Assembly (NCBI GenBank): GCA_903855995.1
Contig: CAIOAN010000003.1
Span: 1 to 64,000 of the forward strand
Source of the DNA: an uncultured Opitutia bacterium
GTDB lineage: Bacteria > Verrucomicrobiota > Verrucomicrobiia > Opitutales > UBA953
Length of the DNA stretch: 64,000 bases
Direction: 5' to 3'
This document shows, one piece after another, positions 40,466-45,563 of the stretch (its first letter is position 1; each line of letters opens with the position of its first letter). The notes below the pieces were generated by a model, which did no database searches, was not told the origin of the DNA, and saw only the letters and a program-made list of their open reading frames with translations. Both the position numbers and the translations under genes were made by a program.

Positions 40466-41820
40466 AGTTCGATCGGCACGCCCGGTTCCGGGTCGTGGAC
40501 GCGCGTTCCCGGCATCGCGCTGGCGAGGGTTTCCTTCATCCAGGCACGGGCGGGTGGGTCGCCGTGCGTGAGCACGATATCTTTCGGCGAGACGGATTTC
40601 GCGAAGTCGATGAGCTCCTCGCGGTCCGCATGGCCGCTGAGGTGGAAGCGGTCGACCTTGGCGCGCAGGGTGGAGATGTGATCCAGGGACTTGAATTTGA
40701 ATTCGCCGCCCGGGGCCATGCCGATGAGTTCGCCGCCCGGGGTTTCCGGATCGCAGTAGCCGACGAAGAACACGGCGTTCTCAGCGTGGTCGAGCATGTT
40801 GGCTGCCACGCGCCAGGCAGGGGTTTTCTCGACGAGCATGCCGCTGGAGAGAAGGTAGATGCCACGTTCGGGCATGTTCTTGCCGGGCTGCGTGTACTTG
40901 CGGGAGAGCGGCTGGATGCCGAGGTCGCGCAAAACCTGACGGCTGAATTTCACCTGCTTCGTCTTCTTGCTGGCGGCGTCGAGGTAGTCGCAGAGATCCA
41001 TGCCGAGGCCCGAGCAGAAAATCGGCACGTCGGCGAGGTTGCCCGCATCGGCGGCCTCTTGGAGGAGCATCAGGATTTCCTGCATACGGCCAAAGGCAAA
41101 GGCTGGGAGCAGCACGGAGCCGCCTTCATCGCAGATCTCATTGATGGCTTTGATGAGGCGGCGCTCCTCGCCGGCGCGATTGATCGAAGGCACCGTGGTC
41201 GTCGCACCGCGCGTGCATTCCATGACGAGGGTGTCGACCGGCTGGCGCGGGAAATTAGCACCGGCGACGGTGCGTTGGGCCTGGAAATGCACGTCGCCCG
41301 TGAAGAAGTGGCGTTGGCGGCGATGTTCGATTAGGCAGCCAACCGCACCCGCCACGTGCCCGGCGAGGTGGAAGGAGAGGGCGACTTCTTCGCCGCCGCG
41401 GCCAATGACGCGGGGGTTGGCGATGGGTACCGCCGCGAGGGCATGCTCGACGCGCTCGACGTCGGTCTCGACATACAGCGGGTAGTCGGCGTTGCCGGTT
41501 TCCTCACGCTGACGTTTCATCACCTGAATGGAGTTGCTGAGCAGGCGGCGGACAAAGAGCGTGGTGGCCGCCGAGGCGTAGACGCGCGAAGAGGGGTGCT
41601 GCTTGAGGAGCAACGGCAGCGAGCCCAGGTGGTCCAGATGGCAGTGTGTGAGAATCACGCCATCGACAGAGCCTTGGATCTTGTCGATCTGCGGGAGCGC
41701 CTTGCGGCCGTCGAGTTTGGGGTGGAGGCCGCAGTCGATCACCAGTCGTAGACCGCCGAATTCGGCGAGCATGCAGTTGGCGCCGATTTCGCGGCCGGAG
41801 TTCAGGTCAGTAAGTCGCAT
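40462..41820 (-). CDS. Metallo-beta-lactamase/beta-CASP RNA-processing nuclease
   Basis: The 452-residue product has zinc motif 2 LTHCHLDHLGSLPLLL, a beta-CASP region (LLPAFAFGRMQEILMLL, YLLSSGMLVEKTPAW) and the C-terminal motifs FHLSGHADREEL and IVLTHGD. These place it with CPSF73/YSH1-like exo- or endoribonucleases common in bacteria. Its ATG shares one base with the apaG stop (TGATG), and its stop overlaps the amidase GTG. It probably processes or degrades RNA; the substrate is unknown. Confidence 0.92.
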   Translation of the reverse strand: MRLTDLNSGREIGANCMLAEFGGLRLVIDCGLHPKLDGRKALPQIDKIQGSVDGVILTHCHLDHLGSLPLLLKQHPSSRVYASAATTLFVRRLLSNSIQVMKRQREETGNADYPLYVETDVERVEHALAAVPIANPRVIGRGGEEVALSFHLAGHVAGAVGCLIEHRRQRHFFTGDVHFQAQRTVAGANFPRQPVDTLVMECTRGATTTVPSINRAGEERRLIKAINEICDEGGSVLLPAFAFGRMQEILMLLQEAADAGNLADVPIFCSGLGMDLCDYLDAASKKTKQVKFSRQVLRDLGIQPLSRKYTQPGKNMPERGIYLLSSGMLVEKTPAWRVAANMLDHAENAVFFVGYCDPETPGGELIGMAPGGEFKFKSLDHISTLRAKVDRFHLSGHADREELIDFAKSVSPKDIVLTHGDPPARAWMKETLASAMPGTRVHDPEPGVPIEL

Positions 41821-42251
41821 CAGGAAGGGGAGGTCGGTGGGGTCATCGCGAATGCCGGGATGCGCACGAAGACGCGATCGCCGGATTGGGTGGTGCCATG
41901 GAAGGCTCCCTCGGCGGTCAGCGGGCCGCCGGCGAGGTGGTAGCTATTATAAGAGAAGCTTTCTCCTGGCGGGATGGTCGGGGTCTCGCCCACGATACCG
42001 TCGCCTTCGACGATTTCCATGGTGCCGTCGGGGGCGCGGATGATCCACTTGCGACCGAGGAGCTTCACCGTCTCCTGGGAGAGGTTGCTGATGGTCAGGA
42101 AGTAGACGAAAGCGTGCGGGGTTTCGGCGGGGAAGTTCGCATCCCGATGGTGGACCACCTTGTCGACGGTGACCCTGAGGCCGAGGAGTTCCTTTCCAGT
42201 GGATTGCACGTAACCCAAGACAAGAGGGGTTGCCCCTGCTACGGAAGCCAT
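41820..42251 (-). CDS. apaG: ApaG-domain protein
   Basis: The 143-residue product is mostly the ApaG fold: LRVTVDKVVHHRDANFPAET, FVYFLTISNLSQETVKLLGR, KWIIRAPDGTMEIVEGDGIV, TIPPGESFSYNSYHLAGGPL. ApaG proteins are small beta-sandwich proteins of uncertain function; in E. coli apaG sits with apaH. The start is the ATG at 42251. A much longer open frame on the same strand (to 43814) runs antisense to the fusion gene and is rejected. Confidence 0.9.
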   Translation of the reverse strand: MASVAGATPLVLGYVQSTGKELLGLRVTVDKVVHHRDANFPAETPHAFVYFLTISNLSQETVKLLGRKWIIRAPDGTMEIVEGDGIVGETPTIPPGESFSYNSYHLAGGPLTAEGAFHGTTQSGDRVFVRIPAFAMTPPTSPS

Positions 42252-42323: not shown

Positions 42324-44966
42324 ATGCCTACCTCCTTCGAGCGCAAGCGTACCTTGGGGCGCGTCCCTGGGAAATGGTGGCTCGTGCTGGGGTATCTGGT
42401 GGTGCTGGCTATTTCGGCCTCCTTTCCGTTTTTTAGTGCCATCGAGACGATTGCCGATGGTGAGCCAATCCATGTGCCGGCTTTCGACTTCAGCGGGGAC
42501 AAGGTCAAGCAGCTGAATTACTCCATCCCAGTCCGGGCCCATCTCCATGGGGTTCTCGGGGCGGAGGAGGCCCAGGAGTATGTCCAGCCGAAGTTCCGTA
42601 ACACGGTCATCGTCTACCTTCATCGCATTCCTTGGGATGATAAAGGCTCCCAGCTCTGCGAAGAACTGGCCCGCAATCCCGAGGTGTCGGTCGTCGAGCC
42701 CTTCATGCCAGGGTTTAAGACCAGCCCGGGGAAGATTCCCAGCCACTCCATGGAGGCGAACGCCGAAGTGGTCGCGTCTTTGATGGAGCATTATGGAGTG
42801 AAGCATTACCATGTCATCGGCCAGGGGTATGGGGGTGTCGCGGCCCTGGAGCTCGCCTCCGCGCATCCGCGTCGCGTGCAGTCGCTGACCTTGATCTCTT
42901 CTCCGGGCGCGGAGGAGTTCGAACTGCTCGGCAACCCACTCGTCAATAAGATCGTCTACGGATTTCAGGGGGCGCTTTTCTGGGGCGTCTCTCGGCTGAC
43001 TCCGAATTTCGGGGCGGCGGATCTGCTGCCTTGGGATCGCGATTACGCCCGCACGGTCTTCGACACGGATCTCTCGGACTCCAAGAATATCCTCCACAAA
43101 TGGACGAAACCATTGCTCGTGGTGCACGGCGAGCACGACTGGCTGACGCCCATCGATACCGCGCGCTATACGACCAAGCTCGCCCCGCAGGCCCGGCTCG
43201 AAGTCCTCCCCGGTGGTCGCGATGCCGCCTTTGCGGACGTGCCCGCCGTGACGGCCAAAATCCAAGGTTTTATCACGGACGTCGACAGGGCCTCGCCCCC
43301 GGCGGTGCTGCCGCCGGAAAATCTCCCGCCCATCCCCGAGGCCACGGGGTCGCGCTTCTGGATCCTGCTCCTGATTATCGTCATTTGTACCTTCGTCGCG
43401 GAGGATCCCACCTGTCTCGCCTCCGGCCTGATGGTCTCCGTGGGGATCATTGATTTCTGGTCCGCCACCGCCGCGTGTACCGCGGGTATCTTCATCGGCG
43501 ACGTCACGCTCTATTCCATCGGTCGCTTTCTCGGCCGCAAGGCCATCCGCCGGGCGCCCTTGAAATGGTTCATCAAGGAACATAAGGTGAACCAGTGGGC
43601 GGGGTGGTTCTCGACGCCGCAGGGCATGCTCGTCGTGGTGAGCTCGCGTTTCGTGCCCGCGAGCCGCGTGCCGACGTTCATCACCGCAGGCATCATGCGC
43701 TTGAATATCTTCCGGCTGGGCATGCTCCTGTTGGTCGCGGCGTTGATCTGGACGCCGCTGCTGATGTGGGTGGGTTATAAGTTCGGCGCCAGCGCGATGC
43801 TGAAGCTCACGCATTTCAAGAGCTATGCCGTCTGGATTATCTTGGGTTTCCTATTCGCCCTGCACGTCGTCACCCACTGGATGATTCCCGCGCTCACCTG
43901 GCGCGGTCGCCGGCAGATCGTGATGAAAGTTCGTGGCCTGCTGCAGCCTTCGCTTTGGCCGGGCTGGGCGCTCTACATGCCTGTCCGCCTAGGTATCGCG
44001 GCACTCTGCCTGCGTTACCGTAGACTGACGGCTTTTGCTTCCGCGAACCCCGCGTTCGGTCGCATCGGCGGCTTCATCGGCGATTCCAAGTCGCTCCTGC
44101 TGCGCCCCTTCCAGCGCGACTCGCGCTGCTGCCCGATGCTGGCGCTTTCTCTGGAAGACTCCGTCGATGATCGCGTCAAGGAGGCCACGGCGTTCGCCGT
44201 CTGCCATGGCCTTCCGGTGGTCTTCAAGCCAGAGGTGGCCGAGGATGGCGCCGGCTTGCGCTTCGTGCGCACGATGGAACAGCTCGAACAGCTCGTCCGC
44301 GGGGCGGCGGAGGATTTCCTGCTGCAGAAATATATTTCTGGTTTCGAATTTGAGGTCGTCTGGCGCCGCAACCCGGGCAAGGACGACGGTCGCATCATGG
44401 CGCTGGTGCAGAAGCGCGACGTGACCGTGCGCGGCGACGGCGAGCAGACGCTCGAAGAACTCATCTGGCTCGACGAAGTGGCGGTCTCGCGCGGCGAGCT
44501 TTTCATCCAGTGCCACGCTCGTGATCTCAACCGCGTGATTCCGGCCGGTCAGAAGGTCACCTTGAATCTCACGGGCAGCTATGGCCACGGCGCCCGCTGC
44601 CTGCAACGCGGCGATTTGATCACCGTCGAGCTAGATACGGCGATGACGGCTTTCGCCAAGCGCTTCCCTGGCCTCCATTTTGCCCGCTTTGATTTACGTG
44701 CGGTCTCGGTCGATGAATTGAAAGCCGGCCGCTTCATCGTCACTGAAGTGGGCGGCTGCTGTCATGTCTCCAGCCTGCTGCGCGATGAGTCTTTGCGTTT
44801 CTCGCGCTCCTACGGGGCGATTTGGGGGCAATTGAAAGCCTGCCTTGAGGCGGGCGATTACAATCTTAGCCAGAAAGTTCGTCCTGTGCCACTGGATGAA
44901 TTGATGGCCCGCTGGAGTCAGGCTCAGGGCCGCCACGACGAATTCGCCGTCAGCGAGGAGAACTGA
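42324..44966 (+). CDS. Fusion of inactive-looking alpha/beta hydrolase, DedA/VTT membrane domain and ATP-grasp domain
   Basis: The 880-residue product has three parts. Residues 1-325 begin with a membrane anchor (about 18-38), then an alpha/beta hydrolase fold. The nucleophile elbow reads VIGQGYGG, with Gly168 where Ser is expected. The acid Asp272 is kept (HGEHDWLTP), but the catalytic His region reads GGRDAAF. Residues 340-560 form a DedA/VTT domain (GIFIGDVTLYSIGRFLGR, SSRFVPASRVPTFITAGI, several helices). Residues 600-860 form an ATP-grasp domain (LPVVFKPEVAEDGAGLRFV, FLLQKYISGFEFEVVW, FDLRAV, EVGGCCH). DedA proteins include undecaprenyl-phosphate and lipid flippases, and ATP-grasp enzymes ligate acids to amines. 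A coupled envelope-building role is inference. The start at 42324 has AAAGGGG just upstream. The stop abuts that of ruvC. Confidence 0.85.
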   Translation: MPTSFERKRTLGRVPGKWWLVLGYLVVLAISASFPFFSAIETIADGEPIHVPAFDFSGDKVKQLNYSIPVRAHLHGVLGAEEAQEYVQPKFRNTVIVYLHRIPWDDKGSQLCEELARNPEVSVVEPFMPGFKTSPGKIPSHSMEANAEVVASLMEHYGVKHYHVIGQGYGGVAALELASAHPRRVQSLTLISSPGAEEFELLGNPLVNKIVYGFQGALFWGVSRLTPNFGAADLLPWDRDYARTVFDTDLSDSKNILHKWTKPLLVVHGEHDWLTPIDTARYTTKLAPQARLEVLPGGRDAAFADVPAVTAKIQGFITDVDRASPPAVLPPENLPPIPEATGSRFWILLLIIVICTFVAEDPTCLASGLMVSVGIIDFWSATAACTAGIFIGDVTLYSIGRFLGRKAIRRAPLKWFIKEHKVNQWAGWFSTPQGMLVVVSSRFVPASRVPTFITAGIMRLNIFRLGMLLLVAALIWTPLLMWVGYKFGASAMLKLTHFKSYAVWIILGFLFALHVVTHWMIPALTWRGRRQIVMKVRGLLQPSLWPGWALYMPVRLGIAALCLRYRRLTAFASANPAFGRIGGFIGDSKSLLLRPFQRDSRCCPMLALSLEDSVDDRVKEATAFAVCHGLPVVFKPEVAEDGAGLRFVRTMEQLEQLVRGAAEDFLLQKYISGFEFEVVWRRNPGKDDGRIMALVQKRDVTVRGDGEQTLEELIWLDEVAVSRGELFIQCHARDLNRVIPAGQKVTLNLTGSYGHGARCLQRGDLITVELDTAMTAFAKRFPGLHFARFDLRAVSVDELKAGRFIVTEVGGCCHVSSLLRDESLRFSRSYGAIWGQLKACLEAGDYNLSQKVRPVPLDELMARWSQAQGRHDEFAVSEEN

Positions 44967-45563
44967 TCAACCGCGCGCCGTGTAGGCGTGGCAGAGGGCC
45001 GCCGCCGCCGCATCCGATTCATCGAGCGGCAGGTCCGCCGGCAGGCTCAGGACGTTGCGTACCATGCGGCCAACCTGTTCCTTGCTGGCCGCACCGTGTC
45101 CCGTGACCGCCATCTTGATGCGCTTCGGCGCGTATTCGCCGACCGTGACGCCGAGTCGCGCGAGCACACTCAGCGCGGCCCCGCGTGATGCGCCCATCGC
45201 CTGGGCGGTGCGGAAGTTTTGAACGTAGATGGTCTCTTCGATCGAGGCCTCTGTCACGCCGTGCTGGCGGGCGAGTTTTTCGACGGCGTCGGCGATCTTC
45301 CCCAGGCATTCGTAGGCTTCAAGTTTAGGCGCGAGTTTCACCGTGACGCTCGCGAGCAGGCGCATGGGTTCGCGGCGGGCGTCGATGACGGCCAGACCTG
45401 TGCCGCGGAGCGAAGGGTCGATGCCGAGGATGATTGCCTTGCAGCCGCGCGGGGGGCTGACCGTCGAGGCGGGGCTCTTGGCCGGGCGGGTGCGTCCCGG
45501 GGCGGGCAGGGGTTGGCCGGTGAGCTTGGCGGTCCAGAGCGAACGCGACGATTTACGGGCCAT
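44967..45563 (-). CDS. ruvC: Holliday junction resolvase RuvC with an N-terminal extension
   Basis: RuvC cuts Holliday junctions symmetrically. The catalytic acids are visible in ILGIDPSLRGTGLAV, in the Glu pair of ASIEETIYVQN, and in PLDESDAAAAALCHA. The 198-residue product has an extra basic, Pro-rich stretch of about 40 residues before the usual start. There is no good internal ATG, so it may be real, or a GTG/CTG start lies inside. RuvA and RuvB are not in the window. The stop is directly adjacent to that of the fusion gene (TGATCA). Confidence 0.93.
   Translation of the reverse strand: MARKSSRSLWTAKLTGQPLPAPGRTRPAKSPASTVSPPRGCKAIILGIDPSLRGTGLAVIDARREPMRLLASVTVKLAPKLEAYECLGKIADAVEKLARQHGVTEASIEETIYVQNFRTAQAMGASRGAALSVLARLGVTVGEYAPKRIKMAVTGHGAASKEQVGRMVRNVLSLPADLPLDESDAAAAALCHAYTARG

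Follow-up and report, generated by a model that had tools for sequence, protein, structure and literature searches.

The locus described here raises the question of what a bacterium does with a single protein of 880 residues in which an alpha/beta-hydrolase, a DedA/VTT membrane domain and an ATP-grasp domain follow one another in one open reading frame. The gene was found in a 64,000-nucleotide stretch of an uncultured Opitutia bacterium, which is called the window below. The original prediction had treated the three parts as normally separate and had proposed that one protein recognizes an envelope precursor, passes it through the membrane and ligates it. The reading favoured here, to which a probability of about one half is given, is that the protein is a DedA-type lipid transporter or scramblase, the two flanking domains of which would be pseudoenzymes kept for ligand binding, and that it was derived from a module linked to aminolipids.

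The features of the locus are compiled in Table 1. The 880 codons are read without any stop, GAAAGGGG was noticed by eye just 5′ of the ATG, and the fusion gene is present in a single copy in the genome. The flanking genes were recognized from their sequence and are taken to be apaG and ruvC. Five Lys/Arg residues lie ahead of the N-terminal membrane helix and none was found among the 15 residues behind it, and this positive-inside pattern suggests that the hydrolase part is probably periplasmic and that the ATP-grasp part is probably cytoplasmic. Structure prediction of the parts, one of the originally proposed checks, led to matches with esterase and ATP-grasp folds in searches that covered the PDB, but the models were weak, with a mean pLDDT of 56.8 for the whole protein and 55.7 for the ATP-grasp domain alone, and with blocks of 70–89 in the hydrolase part. 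Therefore, the geometry of the active sites is not argued, and only the hydrolase part of the model and the names of the folds were used.

Table 1. Coordinates of the fusion gene, its domains and its neighbours in the window.
Feature	Position	Strand	Basis
apaG, conserved divergent neighbour	41820..42251	-	start picked by eye at MASVAG
Fusion gene, 880 aa + stop	42324..44966	+	uninterrupted ORF translation and homologues
N-terminal membrane helix, residues 16-33	42369..42422	+	charge pattern and structure model
Alpha/beta-hydrolase domain, residues 84-325	42573..43298	+	Pfam; fold 4uhc, E 6.3e-11
Nucleophile elbow G166-Q-G168-Y-G170, Gly replaces Ser	42819..42833	+	alignment
Arg299 at catalytic His position	43218..43220	+	alignment
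DedA/VTT membrane domain, residues 340-530; E360, D361, D393, R442, R448	43341..43913	+	Pfam, conservation, YghB alignment
ATP-grasp domain, residues 545-860	43956..44903	+	profile, fold search
Lys635, ATP-site lysine position, present in all rows	44226..44228	+	51-row alignment
E808-V-G810; E-x-N in relatives outside the family	44745..44753	+	alignment
ruvC, conserved convergent neighbour	44967..45563	-	position in conserved loci

An assembly or sequencing error that joins two genes, which the original prediction had named as a possible objection, could be ruled out by the number of genomes and by the conserved setting. The fusion is encoded in 33 of 36 same-genus genomes, and it was not seen in the other three (G010, G012, G023). 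In 29 loci that were collected in a contig search, several of them from genomes that are also among the 36, ruvC always comes after the fusion gene, and apaG lies ahead of it in 25; at the four loci without apaG the contig starts within the fusion gene or at most about 150 bases away. The order apaG-fusion-ruvC was also found in G156, G019, G005 and the sister genus g23 (L108), and it was not found at the g22 loci examined. The search for the same domain order in other genomes was thus positive within the genus and beyond it. A few apparently split copies were observed, two of them separated into two frames by a frameshift (L056:7929-10593 and L052:606-3363) and one divided into two pieces by a TAA (G025:C133), and they may reflect assembly errors or true breakage.

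The conservation of the active sites was analysed with an alignment and a tree of 51 rows, which comprised 17 rows of the window's family and 34 others, 17 of these with all three domains. Copies that are broken or incomplete, L120, L124, L129 and L133 among them, were left out of both. The hydrolase part of the window protein was recognized by Pfam (Abhydrolase_1, 4.6e-16, above the cut-off) and matched an esterase fold (Table 1). It shares the fold and the acid, Asp272, with esterase-like alpha/beta-hydrolases, but it has Gly168 at the place of the serine nucleophile, the oxyanion HG is changed to HR, and the histidine position is mostly occupied by arginine in the family. The serine is absent from all 17 family rows, each of which has glycine there, while it is present in 14 of the 17 three-domain relatives. 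The oxyanion glycine was found in 3/17 family rows versus 13/17 relatives, the histidine in 7/17 versus 13/17 and the acid in 16/17 versus 14/17, and the full Ser-Asp-His triad is intact in 13 of the 17 relatives. The original description of a hydrolase without a nucleophile was confirmed and applies to the whole family. Since the nucleophile is missing, the hydrolase part likely functions as a binding module; the histidines and aspartates that are still present in the family weigh against a dead hydrolase. Two further variants of the elbow were observed. Relatives from family f41 (L114, L116, L117) have the elbow NGHAG without serine and an intact E-x-N in the ATP-grasp part, indicating that the hydrolase site was lost more than once. 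In a subclade of the window's genus (L045, L049, L053, L065 and related loci) the first 150 residues are strongly diverged, the elbow reads GEGMG and the histidine is kept.

The ATP-grasp part was more difficult to assign. With the window protein, the Pfam family CPSase_L_D2 gave a value of 0.0018, slightly below the cut-off, and in NCBIfam only matches to UptA and to cyanophycin synthetase were obtained, both sub-cut-off. A C-terminal profile of ten relatives matched cyanophycin synthetase with 1.3e-10, followed by glutathione synthase-type enzymes and D-Ala-D-Ala ligases, and the assignment is therefore regarded as sound, though the domain is divergent. A Foldseek search of the PDB with the low-confidence ATP-grasp model yielded the same families (2.2e-09, TMq 0.39). 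The profile and the fold, the lysine, the glycine loop, the GDG motif and the aspartate are shared with cyanophycin-synthetase and D-Ala-D-Ala ligase ATP-grasps, as is E-x-N in the relatives. In contrast to those ligases, the window's family lacks the asparagine and other invariant residues, is linked to the membrane and has a distinct N-terminal stretch, WP-x6-P ... NP.

It was revealed that this half of the protein, too, is altered, which the original prediction had not noted. The metal-binding asparagine of E-x-N, Gly810 in the window protein, is present in none of the 17 family rows and in all 34 others, and in a larger set from the window's genus position 810 is glycine in 32 of 35 rows and aspartate in three. 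Glu815 is likewise missing from all family rows (34/34 in the others), and the same is true for Arg641 (32/34) and His753 (31/34). Glu808 has been retained in 13/17 family rows versus 34/34 others, and in g22 both Glu808 and Arg788 are lost as well. The ATP-site lysine (Lys635), Glu675, Lys697 and the metal aspartate (Asp790) are intact in 17/17 family rows, and so is the glycine loop. The family has also gained residues: Glu677 is found in 17/17 rows at a position that is glycine in 34/34 others, and Trp680 and Trp715 are fixed in all 17. On these substitutions, the ligation that had been proposed for the protein appears unlikely.

The membrane domain has been preserved. VTT_dom (PF09335) was matched with 2.4e-11 and 44.6 bits (cut-off 33.9), and E360, D361, D393, R442 and R448 are kept in 17/17 family rows. 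Arg-x5-Arg at the second re-entrant tip (R442, R448) corresponds to R130 and R136 of Escherichia coli YghB, and in the single alignment used, in which the local placement is uncertain, D361 aligns with YghB Asp51, and E360 is adjacent to it. The protein shares VTT_dom, the paired arginines and possibly this aspartate with DedA/VTT proteins of the COG0586 type such as YghB and UptA, but it has an E-D pair and fusions on both sides, it apparently lacks an acid where YghB has Glu39, and it does not reach the UptA equivalog model (NF052604, 51.4 bits, cut-off 250). Nearly all fused relatives have the motif E-D-x-T/A-C at the first re-entrant tip (residues 360-364, window 43401-43415). In YghB, by contrast, the acids are spaced apart, and the motif may identify a DedA subfamily of its own.

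The combination is not restricted to the window's genus. When 387 genomes from the phylum were searched, we counted 39 that encode the ATP-grasp part, either within the three-domain fusion, as VTT-ATP-grasp proteins of 545–630 aa or as standalone ATP-grasp proteins of 373–397 aa. It is also encoded on plasmids of Pseudomonadota (29 records). Paracoccus denitrificans and P. ferrooxidans have adjacent separate genes for ATP-grasp and alpha/beta-hydrolase, with VTT on the opposite strand, and in Azospirillum ramasamyi VTT-ATP-grasp is one gene. Instead of parts that are normally separate, a recurrent set was thus found that is fused, half-fused or encoded by neighbouring genes. On a plasmid of Komagataeibacter medellinensis (L155) the ATP-grasp homologue adjoins genes for a methyltransferase and an iron-containing redox enzyme, and VTT, DinB and TANGO2 were not found beside it. 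No phage match to the standalone ATP-grasp was found.

In the tree, which was rooted at the midpoint for drawing only, the 17 family rows are parted from all others by one branch with a support of 100/99, and the simplest account is therefore that both sites were lost in a common ancestor. For 15 genes the median dN/dS values were 0.18 for the N-terminus, 0.13 for the hydrolase, 0.135 for VTT and 0.061 for the ATP-grasp part; these values are rough, because dS is high and near saturation (medians 1.06–1.43). The mean pairwise identities among 35 rows were 47, 55, 70 and 78 %, respectively. Every domain is under purifying selection, and the presumed dead ATP-grasp is the most constrained part.

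The gene neighbourhood was used to approach the function of the relatives. Among the Verrucomicrobiota that do not belong to the window's family, 33 loci were examined (L120, L124 and L129 counted, L133 not). Within 7 kb, a DinB-like gene was present at 24 of them and a gene of the NRDE/TANGO2 type at 23; OlsF/OlsB-type acyltransferases were found at 9, YHS genes at 7 and genes for a small membrane protein at 4. None of these partners is adjacent at any of six distinct loci of the window's family. Genome-wide, TANGO2 was detected in 23 of 28 carriers outside the family, in none of 12 family genomes and in none of 8 non-carriers; of the five negative outside carriers, three do have an adjacent TANGO2 when a closer query is used. 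A Vibrio sp. THAF191d plasmid (L151:6352-12091) and Photobacterium sp. GJ3 (L154:6303-12163) carry seven separate co-directional genes in the order VTT, ATP-grasp, DinB, TANGO2, YHS, small membrane protein and OlsF-like, a candidate for an undescribed lipid operon. In the Vibrio set, VTT, TANGO2, YHS and both acyltransferase domains were supported by Pfam, while DinB and ATP-grasp remained below the cut-off; the DinB label is therefore weak, and the small membrane protein, a DoxX by eye, gives a weak MauE match.

Four of nine tested proteins scored 363–428 bits with the OlsF model, all under its cut-off of 620, and the separate GNAT proteins L115, L112, L126 and L150 scored 113–175 bits with the OlsB models, also under the cut-off; these neighbours are thus regarded as relatives of ornithine-lipid synthases. 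In the OlsF/OlsBA pathway of ornithine-lipid synthesis we know of no ATP-grasp or DedA partner, whereas OlsF-like or OlsB-like genes adjoin the ATP-grasp genes of the relatives. The OlsF of Vibrio cholerae (VCA0646) is active as a synthase, and its gene stands last in a putative four-gene operon (PMC12186959). A Legionella acyl-histidine enzyme that joins a fatty acid to an amino acid is likewise described as an ATP-grasp (ISME J 2024; PMC11631085). The neighbourhoods suggest that the working version of the module is accompanied by genes for membrane lipids that contain amino acids. In the 387 genomes the Acetyltransf_5 domain was found in 32 of 39 carriers, a set without G106 with its short ATP-grasp match, and in 184 of 348 others (Fisher p 5e-4, confounded by relatedness). 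It is present in 8/8 genomes of the window's genus and in the one g23 genome. Far from the fusion gene, a solo OlsF-like LPLAT-GNAT gene (G000:C8, L135:7765-9582, minus strand) is present in the window genome. Acetyltransf_5 was not found in 3/3 g22 genomes, which keep the fusion, and this speaks against an aminolipid substrate in the window's family.

As the relatives of OlsF and OlsB are the most telling neighbours, the working module is best explained by ATP-dependent modification of an amino-acid lipid and its movement across the bilayer. The ancestor would have consisted of an ATP-grasp ligase and a dedicated DedA protein, often with a triad-bearing hydrolase, and would have acted together with DinB, TANGO2 and acyltransferases of the ornithine-lipid type. 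At the cytoplasmic face the ATP-grasp enzyme would ligate either an amine or an amino acid to an acylamino-acid lipid, a substrate and a reaction that we infer from neighbours and position, and the DedA protein would then move the product across the membrane. In the window's family, a dead hydrolase in the periplasm and a dead ATP-grasp in the cytoplasm, one at each face, would gate or aim the transporter, and the inner domain would perhaps bind ATP or the lipid head group. The invariant VTT residues, together with the loss of Ser168, Asn810 and Glu815 in every family row, support this reading. Against the aminolipid module weigh that 24 of the 33 outside loci have no adjacent acyltransferase and that Acetyltransf_5 is common also in genomes without the ATP-grasp family. 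The apparent lack of an acid at the Glu39 place, the weak models and the near-saturated dS also count against the proposal.

The ATP-grasp of the window protein might still be a ligase whose metal site is altered, and recognition, passage and ligation would then hold in modified form. Loss of the asparagine need not abolish catalysis, Lys635, Glu675, Lys697, Asp790 and the glycine loop, and mostly also Glu808, have been kept in the domain that is the most conserved of all, and Glu677, Trp680 and Trp715 could form another site, which leaves room for this alternative. It is nevertheless unlikely, as four residues that nearly all outsiders keep (34, 34, 32 and 31 of 34) are lost in every family row, g22 lacks Glu808 and Arg788 in addition, and the TANGO2 partner is absent from all 12 family genomes. 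The opposite view, that the fusion is a functionless, decaying relic in the window's family, would account for two lost active sites, the lost operon partners and some split copies. It is disfavoured by dN/dS values of 0.06–0.18 and by family-specific fixed residues, and the occurrence in 33 of 36 genomes and the invariant VTT residues render it very improbable.

Two other explanations concern the cargo. The wider module could be devoted to heme or thiol chemistry, with OlsF as a frequent but incidental neighbour. DinB and TANGO2 are indeed the most common neighbours, ahead of the acyltransferases; DinB relatives are linked to thiols, a paper on bacterial heme handling reportedly mentions TANGO2, and to our knowledge neither protein has a settled role. 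Yet OlsF/OlsB-type enzymes are clustered with the module in two Vibrionaceae and at least eight Verrucomicrobiota loci, and Acetyltransf_5 is more common in carriers, uncorrected for relatedness, so that this explanation is doubtful. It is less probable still that the DedA core is a flippase for undecaprenyl phosphate that the flanking domains only tune. The sub-cut-off UptA matches (51 bits vs 250) and the paired arginines, which COG0586 DedA proteins also have (mBio 2023; PMC10127716), would fit, but the acid at the Glu39 place is apparently missing, the UptA cut-off is unreached, and the neighbours noted at the loci of the relatives are lipid acyltransferases and not cell-wall genes. For the wider family, a link to lipid and envelope genes, as suspected originally, was supported, and it points to genes of the aminolipid type.

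All three domains are from known superfamilies, and the combination appears to be undescribed. The DedA fusions named in the passages of the mBio survey covered here are with rhodanese and PAP2 in COG0586 and with a pyridine-nucleotide oxidoreductase in COG0398, and hydrolase or ATP-grasp fusions are absent from those named there (mBio 2023; PMC10127716). No description of a DedA-ATP-grasp or hydrolase-DedA-ATP-grasp protein was found in the literature searched, the scope of which excluded most subscription journals. Earlier work on amidoligases (Iyer 2009) may describe part of the module. Taken together, it is tentatively proposed that a widespread undescribed lipid system, composed of an ATP-grasp ligase, its own DedA transporter, TANGO2, DinB and often a periplasmic hydrolase, may modify and translocate an aminolipid of the OlsF/OlsB type, and that a freshwater Opitutae family has turned the fused form of this system into a transporter gated at both faces by the two dead enzymes. 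If this is right, DedA proteins, the lipid cargo of which is debated, would gain a definite enzyme partner and a cargo that can be tested, and the bacterial TANGO2 and DinB-like proteins would gain a pathway. One three-domain protein, in which the enzyme domains are working in some lineages and dead in others, would then offer a clean natural comparison within one family, with the change placed on a single branch of the tree.
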